The notes under the pieces are model-generated. The model did no database searches. It had not been told where the DNA came from and saw only the letters and a list, made by a program, of their open reading frames with translations. This document shows, one piece after another, positions 8,797 through 22,837 of a stretch of DNA of 32,375 nucleotides (positions are counted from its first letter, which is position 1; each line of letters opens with the position of its first letter). The position numbers and the translations under genes are program-made. The DNA comes from an uncultured Bacilli bacterium (GTDB lineage Bacteria; Bacillota_I; Bacilli_A; RF39; UBA660), in NCBI GenBank assembly GCA_947628685.1, contig CANRAT010000004.1:1-32375 (forward strand). Reading direction: 5' to 3'.

Positions 8797-8847
8797 AATT
8801 CGACAAAAAAAACCTTTGATTTAAGCTACAATAAAAATGGTGATAAT

Positions 8848-9303
8848 ATGAAAAAATATTTATTAACTTTTTCGGTGGCTTTAATCATTGGTTTTTTTCT
8901 TTCTAATTTTTTTATAAGACAATATAATAATTTTAACGGAATAAAAGTTGGAGGTATGGGTGAAGAATTATATTTTGTACAATATGGTGTCTATTCTAAT
9001 TTAGAAAGTTTAGAAGATAATACAATTTCACTTCAAAATTATGTATATAATGAGCAAGATAATTTATATTATGTATATGTCGGAATCACAAAATTAGAAG
9101 AAAATGCTAATAAGATTGTTAAACACTACAAAGATTTAGGATATGATGCAATAATAAAGAAATTTGAAATAACAAATAAAGATTTTTTAGAATTACTTGT
9201 AAATTATGATGAAATATTAAAAGGTACAGATGATGATACTGCAATTTCATCTATAATAAATCAAGTTTTAATGAAGTATGAGGAGGTTGTAATAAATGGT
9301 TAA
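8848..9303 (+). CDS. Membrane-anchored protein with a SPOR-like domain
   Basis: A 151-residue protein with one N-terminal membrane segment (about 4-23). A domain from about 41 to 107 has the SPOR pattern: YFVQYGVY strand, YYVYVGI strand, then a helix ending in ANKIVKHYKDLGYDA and a final strand. SPOR domains bind denuded glycan at the septum in other bacteria, which suits a position between ftsK and radC/mreCD. The assignment rests on pattern and not on close similarity. The start follows GGTGAT at 8839-8844. The end overlaps radC by eight bases. Confidence 0.7.
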   Translation: MKKYLLTFSVALIIGFFLSNFFIRQYNNFNGIKVGGMGEELYFVQYGVYSNLESLEDNTISLQNYVYNEQDNLYYVYVGITKLEENANKIVKHYKDLGYDAIIKKFEITNKDFLELLVNYDEILKGTDDDTAISSIINQVLMKYEEVVING

Positions 9304-17263: not shown

Positions 17264-17292
17264 AAAAGACGACTTGCAAAAAAGTCGCTTTT
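17264..17292 (-). terminator. Hairpin over the antitoxin B promoter, probable end of toxin mRNA B
   Basis: AAAAG-A-CGACTT (17264-17275) pairs with AAGTCG-CTTTT (17282-17292), loop GCAAAA. Leftward transcripts meet TCTTTTGTT after the stem. Fully paired apart from one bulged base. Confidence 0.55.
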
Positions 17293-18378: not shown

Positions 18379-19014
18379 ATGGAATATGAATTAGATGGTA
18401 AAACTTTTGAAGTTGTAATAGAAAAAAAGAATAATAAAAATTTATATATAAGAGTTAAAGAAGATGAAAAAATCTATGTCACTTGCAATTATTTAACGAG
18501 TAAAGCAATGATTAAAAAAGTATTGGATCAAAACATAAATACTTTACGAAAAATGGTTAAACATATAGAATTTCAAAACAAAAAAAGCAATAAATTCTTT
18601 TATTTAGGCAATTCTTATGATATAATAATAAATGAAAACATAAATGAAGTAGCGATATTAAATGGTAAAATATATACTAAAGATTTAAAAATGCTAGATA
18701 AGTGGTATAAAGAGGAAACAATTAAAGTATTTGATGATAGATTCGTTTATATATTTAATCATTTCAATGAAAACATAAAATCTCCAATATTAAAAATAAG
18801 AAATATGAAAACAAGATGGGGAGTTTATAATAAAAAAAATCACACCATAACACTCAATTCAAAACTAATAGAATTTGATATATCTAAAATAGATTATGTA
18901 ATAGTTCACGAATTATCTCATATAATACATTTTAATCATTCTAAGGAGTTTTGGTCTTTAGTAGGTAAATATGTTCCAAATTATAAAGAAATAAGGAAAG
19001 AGATGAAAGAATGA
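18379..19014 (+). CDS. YgjP-like (DUF45) zinc metallopeptidase
   Basis: A 211-residue protein of the YgjP-like metallopeptidase family. The zinc site HELSH (His177, Glu178, His181) and third ligand His187 in FNHSKEFW are present, with the family's MKTRWG (143-148) before them. The N-terminal part is beta-rich. Substrate unknown. It overlaps the next gene by four bases (ATGA), so it is co-translated with an M23 peptidase. Confidence 0.9.
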   Translation: MEYELDGKTFEVVIEKKNNKNLYIRVKEDEKIYVTCNYLTSKAMIKKVLDQNINTLRKMVKHIEFQNKKSNKFFYLGNSYDIIINENINEVAILNGKIYTKDLKMLDKWYKEETIKVFDDRFVYIFNHFNENIKSPILKIRNMKTRWGVYNKKNHTITLNSKLIEFDISKIDYVIVHELSHIIHFNHSKEFWSLVGKYVPNYKEIRKEMKE

Positions 19015-20246
19015 AAAAATTTTTAAAAAAGTCAAAATATTTACTAATAATACTAATTTTACTAGTTGTTAATTTTTCAATGCCAACTAAAGAAGTTGCT
19101 GAAGCCAAAACATTAAGAGATTTAAAAGCAGAACTTAATGCTGCAAAAAAGAAATATGAAGAAAGTCAAGATGATAAAAAATTAACAGAAGAACAAATTT
19201 CTAAAAAAAATGAAGAGATTAATGCTATAAGTAGAGAAATAGAAGATATTAGAGAAGAAATACAAAATTTAAACTTAGAAATAGAAACTTTGGAAAAAGA
19301 GATAGTAGAAAAAGGGGAAGAAATAAAAAAAATAATCAATTACTATCAATTATCTAGTAGTGAATCTGCATATTTAGAATATATATTTGAGGCTGCTGAT
19401 TTTACAGACTTCATATATAGAATGGCCGTTTCAGAACAATTATCAAGTTATAATGATAGACTTATAGACGAATACAATCAAACAATAAAAGAAAATGAGC
19501 AAAAGAAAAAAGATTTAGACGCAAAGACTATTTCTTTAGGTGAAAAACAAATCACTTTACAAAAAGATTTAAATAGTTTAGGTTCACGATTAAGTGATAT
19601 TACTGATATTAGTATAAGTGCGGAAAAAGAAATAGAATCTTTAGAAGAATTAGTTAATACATATGAAAATGAATTAAAATGTGATTTAGATGAAGATATA
19701 AATAATTGTGGTAATGGGCAACTTCCACCTGGAACAGCTTTTTATAGACCAGTAGTTTCAGGATATATTTCAAGTGATTTTGGACCAAGAACTTATTATT
19801 TAAAAGGAAAGAAAGTATCTGATTTCCACTATGGAGTAGATTTTGGTGGTGCGGGACACGGAGCACCAGTTTATGCTGCTGCTAATGGTAAGGTTGTATT
19901 TATAACAAGAAAATCAAATTGTGGAGGAAATATGGTGTATATTCAACACACAGTAAACGGTCAAAAATACACAACAGGATATTTCCATTTAGCAAAAATT
20001 AATGTAAACTTGAATGATATAGTTACAACAAATACGGTAATTGGAGCAGTAGGTGGAGATCCAAATATTGAAACTTGGGATGGATGTTCAACAGGTTCAC
20101 ATCTTCATTTTCAAGTTGCAACAGGACATATACCTTATCAAGTAGGTTTTTATACGGCTTTTACAGCGAACTATATAAATCCTAGAACTGTGTTAAATAT
20201 ACCTAAAGAAGGCGTAAGATTTAGCGATAGAACAACTAAATATTAA
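19011..20246 (+). CDS. Secreted coiled-coil M23 peptidase (EnvC/PcsB-like)
   Basis: A 411-residue cell-wall hydrolase. It has a signal or anchor segment (about 10-24), a long coiled coil (about 34-112 and 146-223), and a C-terminal M23/LytM domain (about 245-395). The zinc ligands His273, Asp277 (FHYGVDFGG) and His366 (SHLHF) are intact, with His326 and His364 as catalytic partners, so it should be active. The coiled-coil plus LytM design resembles EnvC and septal hydrolases, whose coiled coil usually receives a signal from FtsEX; no ftsEX is here. Cys224, Cys233, Cys304 and Cys359 are in the secreted part. It is the last gene of a three-gene operon ending at a terminator-like hairpin. Confidence 0.93.
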   Translation: MKKFLKKSKYLLIILILLVVNFSMPTKEVAEAKTLRDLKAELNAAKKKYEESQDDKKLTEEQISKKNEEINAISREIEDIREEIQNLNLEIETLEKEIVEKGEEIKKIINYYQLSSSESAYLEYIFEAADFTDFIYRMAVSEQLSSYNDRLIDEYNQTIKENEQKKKDLDAKTISLGEKQITLQKDLNSLGSRLSDITDISISAEKEIESLEELVNTYENELKCDLDEDINNCGNGQLPPGTAFYRPVVSGYISSDFGPRTYYLKGKKVSDFHYGVDFGGAGHGAPVYAAANGKVVFITRKSNCGGNMVYIQHTVNGQKYTTGYFHLAKINVNLNDIVTTNTVIGAVGGDPNIETWDGCSTGSHLHFQVATGHIPYQVGFYTAFTANYINPRTVLNIPKEGVRFSDRTTKY

Positions 20247-20261
20247 TCGACAAAAAATAAT

Positions 20262-20298
20262 AGTCACTGCTATTAAAATAATAGTGGTGATTTTTTTT
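20262..20298 (+). terminator. Terminator-like hairpin containing the next gene's ribosome binding site
   Basis: A 13-base-pair stem, 20262-20274 with 20280-20292 (including G-U pairs), loop AAAAT, followed by a run of T to 20298. It serves as terminator of the envelope operon. The 3' arm contains GGTGAT, the ribosome binding site of the gene starting at 20299, and the T run is its spacer. Confidence 0.75.
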
Positions 20299-20469
20299 AT
20301 GAAAGTAAAATTATTTGACGAATCTCATGAATTAGATTTAGAGAAAAGTATTAATAAGTTTTTAAGTGAAAAAGAAATAGATTTAATTGATATTAAATAT
20401 CAAGTGGCTATAAGTATATGTGGTGAAGAGCAAATATACTGCTTTAGTGCGATGGTAATTTATCGGTGA
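20299..20469 (+). CDS. Cse60-like small protein
   Basis: A 56-residue protein starting MKVKLFDESHELDLE and ending with IYCFSAMVIYR, the pattern of the Bacillus sporulation protein Cse60 and its relatives, which are common even in non-sporulating Bacillota. Function unknown. Start ATG at 20299, preceded by GGTGAT with eight bases between; two in-frame GTG codons (20284, 20287) lie inside the stem and overlap that site. Its translation signals are buried in a terminator hairpin. Confidence 0.75.
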   Translation: MKVKLFDESHELDLEKSINKFLSEKEIDLIDIKYQVAISICGEEQIYCFSAMVIYR

Positions 20470-20533: not shown

Positions 20534-22837
20534 ATGTATAATAGTTTTACAGAAGAAGCAAGAAAAATATTAATGTCTGCAAAAGAAGAGATGAAAAAAC
20601 TTAAACATCCTTATATAGGTAGTGAACATCTTCTTCTTTCAATATTAAAAGATAATAATGAAATAAGTGAAAAATTAAAAGAATATGACTTAGACTACAC
20701 AAGATTTAGAAATGAAATAATAGAAATAGTAGGAGTCGGAAGTAAGGAATCAGAATGCTTTTTATACACACCACTTTTAAAAAGAATAATGGAAAATGCA
20801 GTATATGACAGTAAAGAAAATAACAATGGGAGTGTAACTGTTAATCATCTTTTCTCTGCAATGTTAGAAGAAGGAGAGGGAATAGCTATTAGAATTCTTA
20901 TAGGCATGGATATAGATCTAGATGAATTATATCAAGAATTTGCATATAAACTTCCAACTAAAAAGTCAAAAAATAAAAAACTTCTTATAGACGAACTTGG
21001 TGTAGATTTAACTAAAAAAGCAAGAGATTTTGAACTCGATCCAGTAATAGGAAGAGATGAAGAAACTAGAAATGTAATTGAAATATTAAGTAGGAGAAAG
21101 AAAAATAATCCTATTTTAATAGGCGAAGCAGGAGTTGGTAAAACTGCTATTGTAGAAAACCTTTGTAAAATGATCGTAAATGGAGAAGTACCTAATAATT
21201 TAAGGAATAAAAGAGTAATTTCGCTTGATATGGCAACTACTGTTGCAGGGACTAAATATCGTGGTGAGTTCGAAGAGAGAGTAAATAAAATATTAAAAGA
21301 ATTAGAAGAGAATGATGATATAATTCTTTTCATAGATGAGATACACACACTTGTTGGAGCAGGTGGAGCAGAAGGAGCAATTGATGCATCAAATATATTT
21401 AAGCCTGCACTCGCTCGAAATAAAATAAGATGTATAGGCGCAACTACTACATTAGAATATAAAAAATTTATATCTGGTGATAAAGCACTCGATCGTAGAT
21501 TTCAAAAAGTAGAAGTAAAAGAACCTAATAGGAAAGTAGTAAAAGAAATACTTTTAAAATCAAGAGATATATATTCTAAATATCACAAAGCAATTATTTC
21601 AGATGATATAATAGACTATATCATAGAACTTTCAAATAAATATATAAAAAATAGATTCGAGCCAGATAAATCAATAGACATATTAGATGAAGTGTCCGCA
21701 CACGCATCACTTAAAGAAAATAAAAAACTAAAGACCTATAATAGTTTAAATAAAGATTTAAGTGAAATAATAAAAATAAAAAAAAATTACCTAATAAAAA
21801 AAGATTACGAAAATGCTTCAATATACAAAGAAAAAGAAAATAAATTAATGACAAAAATAAATAAACTAGAACTTAAACTTTCTAAAGAAACTGCAAATAT
21901 AGTAACGCGTGAAGATGTCATTAAAGTAGTAAGTAGAAAAAGTAATATACCAATATATGAATTAAAAGATATGGACGTATCTGATATAACTAGTTTTTCT
22001 AAAACTTTAAAAGAAAAAATAATAGGTAATACAAGTAATATAGATGAAATAGTTAAAGTTTATAAAAAATTAAAACTAGGATTTAAAGATGATAATATGT
22101 GCTATTCACTTATTTTTGTAGGACCTAGTGGAGTTGGGAAAACAGAACTTGCTAAACTTTTTGCAAATAAAATTTCAAGCAATGTAATTAGACTTGATAT
22201 GAGTGAATATAGTGAACCACACCAGGTGAGTAAATTAATAGGTTCTCCTGCAGGATATGTAGGATACTCTGATAATAAAAATATATTTGAAAGCGTTAAA
22301 GATAATCCTTTTTCAGTAATTATATTAGACGAAGTAGAAAAAGCACATCAAAATGTCTTAAATTTATTCTATCAAATACTAGATGAAGGTAAATTAAAAG
22401 ATTCTAAGGGTGATGATATATATTTTAATAACTCGATTATAATTATGACATCAAATATAGGTTACAATACCCAAAGTATAGGATTTAATAATAAAAACAA
22501 AGTAAATAATGAGTTAAAAGAAACACTCGGTATACCATTTATAAATAGAATAGATAATATACTTGAATTTGATTTTTTAACAAGAGAAGATATAAAAAAA
22601 ATAGTATCTATTAGGTTAAATAAATTAAAAGATAAATATAAAAATAAAGGAGTTAAAGTTAAAATTAATTCTAATGTTATAGATGAAATAATAGAACTGT
22701 CTAATTTTGAAGAATTTGGAGCAAGAAAGATAGATAAAATAATTAAAAATAAATTAGAAACAATAATTATAAATAATGTATTAGATAATATTTATAATAT
22801 TAATATAAAAACAATTAAAAATGAAGTTTTAAATTAG
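20534..22837 (+). CDS. clpC: ATP-dependent Clp protease ATP-binding subunit ClpC
   Basis: AAA+ unfoldase that feeds proteins to ClpP. The 767-residue protein has a Clp N domain (about 1-140), first ATPase with Walker A GEAGVGKT (197-204) and Walker B ILFIDE (264-269), a short middle region with a UVR-like motif (about 411-440), and a second ATPase with GPSGVGKT (530-537) and VIILDE (595-600). IGF (649-651) is in the position of the ClpP-binding loop, which separates it from ClpB. Somewhat shorter than Bacillus ClpC (about 810). The ATG follows TAGGAGG. No ctsR, mcsA or mcsB is upstream, and I see no CtsR operator. Confidence 0.93.
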   Translation: MYNSFTEEARKILMSAKEEMKKLKHPYIGSEHLLLSILKDNNEISEKLKEYDLDYTRFRNEIIEIVGVGSKESECFLYTPLLKRIMENAVYDSKENNNGSVTVNHLFSAMLEEGEGIAIRILIGMDIDLDELYQEFAYKLPTKKSKNKKLLIDELGVDLTKKARDFELDPVIGRDEETRNVIEILSRRKKNNPILIGEAGVGKTAIVENLCKMIVNGEVPNNLRNKRVISLDMATTVAGTKYRGEFEERVNKILKELEENDDIILFIDEIHTLVGAGGAEGAIDASNIFKPALARNKIRCIGATTTLEYKKFISGDKALDRRFQKVEVKEPNRKVVKEILLKSRDIYSKYHKAIISDDIIDYIIELSNKYIKNRFEPDKSIDILDEVSAHASLKENKKLKTYNSLNKDLSEIIKIKKNYLIKKDYENASIYKEKENKLMTKINKLELKLSKETANIVTREDVIKVVSRKSNIPIYELKDMDVSDITSFSKTLKEKIIGNTSNIDEIVKVYKKLKLGFKDDNMCYSLIFVGPSGVGKTELAKLFANKISSNVIRLDMSEYSEPHQVSKLIGSPAGYVGYSDNKNIFESVKDNPFSVIILDEVEKAHQNVLNLFYQILDEGKLKDSKGDDIYFNNSIIIMTSNIGYNTQSIGFNNKNKVNNELKETLGIPFINRIDNILEFDFLTREDIKKIVSIRLNKLKDKYKNKGVKVKINSNVIDEIIELSNFEEFGARKIDKIIKNKLETIIINNVLDNIYNINIKTIKNEVLN

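Follow-up and report, generated by a model that had tools for sequence, protein, structure and literature searches.

In the window (the whole 32375-nt stretch of DNA analysed here; contig C4 of a 1.29-Mb metagenome assembly), the start codon of cse60 lies immediately behind a terminator-like hairpin that also contains the ribosome-binding site of the gene, raising the question of how cse60 is expressed and what becomes of transcripts arriving from upstream. The gene (20299–20469, + strand; 56 aa), called Cse60-like in an initial annotation made from the letters alone, matches PF10957 over its full length (residues 1–56; 83.3 bits against a cut-off of 20.7; 1e-23). An NCBIfam search returned no family for Cse60 or for an ABC_trans_CmpB-type gene. 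Homologues align from the ATG in nearly all cases, despite in-frame GTG codons at 20284 and 20287 inside the 3′ arm of the hairpin. The upstream gene (19011–20246, + strand; hereafter the M23 gene) encodes a PcsB-like coiled coil and an M23 peptidase (Pfam PF01551, PF24568). A ClpC-like ATPase gene (20534–22837) comes next after cse60, as in related genera, and the order M23-cse60-clpC is common to all three genera in which the hairpin was found. Cse60 (YteV) of Bacillus subtilis belongs to the same protein family, and its gene is under σE control. It has been placed in the mother-cell sporulation regulon (Henriques 1997, as cited in PMC8863042), whereas cse60 of the window looks like a direct Spo0A target.

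The sequence from the M23 stop codon to the cse60 start codon (20244–20301) is TAATCGACAAAAAATAATAGTCACTGCTATTAAAATAATAGTGGTGATTTTTTTTATG. It folds into AGTCACTGCTATTA, a loop of AAA and TAATAGTGGTGATT, giving a stem of 14 pairs, three of them G-U (5′ arm, 20262–20275; 3′ arm, 20279–20292; + strand); the initial annotation had recognised the stem and counted 13. As it had also described, the Shine-Dalgarno (SD) sequence GGTGAT (20286–20291) is part of the 3′ arm and is separated from the ATG (20299–20301) only by a T tract (T8, 20291–20298; first two T paired in the stem, six unpaired), which thus doubles as terminator U tract and SD-to-start spacer. An 81-nt stretch carrying the hairpin has a minimum free energy of −14.8 kcal/mol (z −3.06), equalled by 2 of 200 dinucleotide shuffles, and a terminator scan of 7 kb found the hairpin independently, among three terminator-like sites (0.8 expected), the remaining two being both strands of a single site. 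Having a stable stem and an immediate U tract, the element has the make-up of an intrinsic terminator, and it is more stable than the usual terminator-like hairpin behind genes of the same genome (median −7.9 kcal/mol). T-tailed hairpins of −10 kcal/mol or lower that end at a start site were found at 5/415 sampled gene starts (background counts from 432 kb of stretches of this genome). Termination may be partial, since the stem is A-U rich with only three G-C pairs.

Conservation of the pairing, which the initial annotation had proposed as a check, was assessed in relatives, which are uncultured Bacilli from animal guts. Hairpin, T run and adjoining start codon are kept in 15/15 cse60 homologues of the same genus, and in an alignment of 17 distinct homologues from three genera 97.5% of cells are paired; the covariation score of this alignment was matched by 0/500 shuffles, and structures shifted by 1–3 columns have far fewer pairs. 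Changes in same-genus stems are mostly wobble-compatible: in the 5′ arm A/G varies opposite U and C/U opposite G, with the SD-carrying 3′ arm nearly constant, and a related genus adds a double compensatory change at two pairs (A-U to G-C, C-G to A-U). With the 5′ arm varying mostly in pair-compatible ways, and given the double changes and the covariation score, the pattern points to selection acting on RNA pairing. Genome contigs from public records gave the same picture. A 29-bp inverted repeat lying over a promoter −10 (see below) with an invariant 3′ half is also a common operator layout, and the repeat might be read as a DNA site for a repressor or activator instead of an RNA element. We consider this very improbable, as the two halves are asymmetric as DNA (the A/G and C/U alternatives preserve RNA pairs and break DNA symmetry, a pattern on which this candidate was rejected), a T run directly follows the repeat, and other genera retain the promoter without it.

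The three genera sharing this hairpin, all with an M23 gene in front, probably inherited it as a single hairpin. At L028, L046 and L034, hairpins of other sequence cover the same SD behind other upstream genes, which suggests several origins. In most other genera the promoter is retained and the hairpin is absent.

That promoter, missed by the initial annotation, is conserved and of Spo0A type, and it occupies the same 30 bases as the hairpin. Upstream of cse60 the layout (T)CGACA, 21 bp, TATAAT, 6 bp, GGTGAT, 3–4 bp, ATG is nearly universal in the family, with a GACA to −10 distance of exactly 21 bp in 99 of the 109 homologues that have good elements. In the window, the putative Spo0A box ATCGACA (20246–20252, + strand; GACA, 20249–20252, at a position fixed family-wide) falls in the −35 region and matches TTCGACA at 6/7 positions, this being the reverse complement of the Spo0A box consensus TGTCGAA, whose core reads CGACA on the other strand (PMC3485338). 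The −10 element TAAAAT (20274–20279, + strand), 21 bp after GACA, runs across the hairpin loop (AAA, 20276–20278). TANAAT is unchanged in 17/17 hairpin homologues save for its third base (A, T or C), and the rest of the loop is constant, a constraint that, as expected, would fit a promoter and not a free loop. From the conserved N6 after the −10, the cse60 start is predicted at ~20286, the first G of the SD; RNA from this promoter would lack the 5′ arm, because the predicted start lies inside the 3′ arm. An ordinary σA promoter with 16–18 bp spacing is absent at the site, only the 21-bp spacing being conserved, and a generic promoter scan gave nothing above chance. A MerR-type activator (19–20 bp spacers) was also rejected, the spacer in hairpin-less genera containing no conserved palindrome.

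The promoter pattern recurs upstream of other sporulation genes. CGACA-N21-TANNNT-N6-GGTGA has five exact sites in the genome of the window, preceding spoIIGA, spoIIP, a histidine kinase gene, a SPOR-domain protein gene and cse60, and none when the pattern is reversed; a scan of 58 family genomes gave 86 sites versus 0 for the reversed pattern, and the genes behind them include spoIIGA, sirA, spoIIP and cse60. Without the SD, the looser pattern YGACAW-N20-TANAAT occurred about as often as its reversed form (9 versus 8), specificity being gained once N6-GGTGA is added. Predicted leaders of the family promoters are 9–13 nt. Within the window, a second copy of the promoter (8801–8843, + strand) precedes a gene for a SPOR-domain membrane protein (8848–9303), followed by radC, and served as comparison site. 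In B. subtilis, spoIIE and spoIIG have −35/−10 spacers of 21–22 bp (21 bp here). The cse60 promoter resembles these Spo0A~P/σA promoters in its 0A box near −35, TATAAT-like −10 and over-long spacer, but differs in the rigid layout seen throughout this family, in which the −10 and N6 lead directly into the SD (GGTGAT). Both spoIIG and spoIIE are σA-dependent members of the Spo0A regulon (PMC12090719), and Spo0A~P controls the production of SirA in B. subtilis (PMC5295017). A Spo0A_C domain is encoded in 269/291 family genomes, including that of the window, and the genomes lacking cse60 are mainly those with a weak Spo0A or none (Fisher p 2e-11; some absences reflect incomplete assemblies). Because the motif precedes spoIIGA and sirA, Spo0A is encoded and loss of cse60 tracks Spo0A, the cse60 site is read as a Spo0A-activated σA promoter, at which Spo0A would bind the ATCGACA box. 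On this reading, the functionally uncharacterised Cse60 would be controlled by the first regulator of sporulation in this family, and the family itself, a large one made up of uncultured gut Bacilli, gains a defined Spo0A regulon motif (CGACA-N21-TATAAT-N6-GGTGA).

The superposition of promoter and hairpin has different predicted consequences for the two kinds of transcript. Opening the SD is predicted to cost 9.3 kcal/mol in read-through RNA versus 1.3 in the gene’s own RNA in the window (8.9–13.0 versus 0.2–2.3 kcal/mol across the genus), in agreement with the initial proposal that read-through RNA from the M23 operon hides the ribosome site. We therefore propose, with a probability of about 0.77, that the element separates the M23 gene from cse60 as a promoter-in-terminator insulator, which ends the M23 unit, silences transcripts that escape and leaves a Spo0A-driven start as the only route to expression. 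Polymerase arriving from the M23 gene would produce the 14-pair hairpin and U8 and mostly terminate; RNA that escapes would retain both arms, and by the computed fold its SD would be paired and cse60 left untranslated. In sporulating cells, Spo0A~P at 20246–20252 together with σA polymerase at the −10 (20274–20279) would, judging from the family-wide conservation, start RNA at ~20286. This RNA, beginning at the SD with a leader of ~13 nt, would form no hairpin and could be translated freely, so that Cse60 would be made from its own developmental promoter alone in a locus with no spare intergenic DNA. The initial annotation had counted a transcript beginning inside the stem against its reading. 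The comparative evidence predicts just such a start, which would complete the insulation, since read-through RNA would be locked and the gene’s own RNA free.

That annotation left insulation and a switch side by side, and it is insulation that the predicted locking of the SD in read-through RNA supports. A conditional switch within a single M23-operon transcript (attenuator, riboswitch or RNA thermometer) would likewise bury an SD in a terminator-tailed hairpin, as translational and transcriptional attenuators do. It is nonetheless hardly credible here, given that an Rfam search gave no match up to E = 1, that the alignment contains a single conserved helix with no conserved competitor, and that, the promoter aside, nothing resembling a conserved leader separates the stem from the M23 stop codon; an assignment to a riboswitch, an attenuator or a known RNA family was rejected on the Rfam result and the lack of an alternative conserved pairing.

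A simpler account, that the hairpin is just the M23 terminator, compacted against the next start codon, with burial of the SD as a by-product without effect, is the strongest of the alternatives but still unlikely. It draws on the tight packing of the locus: the M23 stop codon (20244–20246 in the window, where it abuts or overlaps the Spo0A box) abuts the box in nearly all hairpin loci (0–6 nt; one at 40), a separate terminator for the M23 gene was found in none of them, and elsewhere in the family terminators lie immediately before the promoter spacer or within it. However, the spacer could house a terminator clear of the SD, as it does at spoIIGA, every homologue pairs the 3′ arm that carries the SD, SD-covering hairpins occur in unrelated contexts (L028, L046 and L034 above), and sigG of the same genome is arranged likewise. 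Many genera in which the upstream stop codon abuts the promoter have neither such a hairpin nor a separate terminator, and for this reason the device appears useful yet not indispensable everywhere. Occurrence of either a lock hairpin or a separate terminator, never both, was only a trend when counted by genus (0/6 versus 29–31/74, p about 0.08).

Read-through locks of comparable logic are known from other systems. In transposase genes of IS10 and IS200, read-through RNA folds the ribosome-binding site away and the gene’s own RNA does not; here no transposon is involved, and the use would be developmental timing. For B. subtilis sigG (spoIIIG), it has been proposed that a hairpin of 20+ bp keeps read-through RNA from spoIIG untranslated, whereas RNA from PsigG cannot form this hairpin (PMC5942855). 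B. subtilis sigG and cse60 of the window are both sporulation genes, and both have a hairpin that is proposed (sigG) or predicted from the opening cost given above (cse60) to hide the ribosome-binding site in read-through RNA. Own RNA free of the hairpin is, for cse60, a prediction from the conserved −10 in the loop, which would put +1 at ~20286. They differ in promoter (Spo0A/σA at cse60, σF/σG at sigG) and in the T8 end of the cse60 hairpin, which makes it a terminator as well, with the SD-ATG spacer as its tail. Preferring the insulator reading, we regard the cse60 element as a new version of the read-through lock known from sigG, combined here with a Spo0A promoter and a terminator. Terminator, translational lock, developmental promoter and ribosome site would then fit in about 55 bp of a compact genome, making a sporulation gene deaf to transcription of its neighbour, the presumed benefit to the cell.

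Besides cse60, four of the 415 sampled starts have a strong T-tailed hairpin. One is sigG of the same genome (L158:10804–11580, − strand; NF006071 above cut-off), with a promoter-in-hairpin and T tail directly before the ATG: GTATA-N18-CAATATA (σF/σG type) has its −10 in the loop and is followed by an SD in the 3′ arm, a T run and the ATG. This hairpin is kept in some, not all, of the genus and found in other genera too. A gene of EssC type (T7SS; L146:6317, + strand) and one encoding 109 aa (L152:693, + strand) each have a TATAAT-like −10 in the hairpin loop and an SD in the 3′ arm. Such insulators could be searched for by a simple rule, namely 5′ arm upstream of +1, −10 in the loop and SD in the 3′ arm. 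The last of the five start-site hairpins, counting cse60, looks like a T-box terminator, a different kind of element. A T-box-like leader at L154:16640–16707 (GGTGGTACCACG plus terminator) precedes a 114-aa ORF.

A second combination of promoter and terminator was seen at spoIIGA (L162:9528–10304, − strand; upstream 60 bases, G000:C20:10309–10351, − strand), where the N21 spacer contains a terminator-like hairpin whose 5′ arm is formed by the Spo0A box (CGACACATTTAACAGTGTCTTTTTTTTATAAT); in relatives this spacer terminator is often present, as CGACAC-loop-GTGTC-TTTTTTTT-TATAAT. Among the 86 promoter sites, 18 have a T-tailed spacer hairpin (mean 2.9, maximum 10 in 200 shuffles), and wherever the 0A box formed one arm and the gene could be read, that gene was spoIIGA. 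Tentatively, the Spo0A promoters of this family may in general also serve as intrinsic terminators of the preceding gene, in two forms (within the N21 spacer with a 0A-box arm, as at spoIIGA, or over the −10 and SD as a lock, as at cse60), and Spo0A~P binding or initiation might compete with or block incoming polymerase. If so, one short DNA segment would decide whether a locus serves as an end or as a start. Elsewhere in the window, a bidirectional terminator-like hairpin (CGACTTGCAAAAAAGTCG) is located between genes at 17269–17288.
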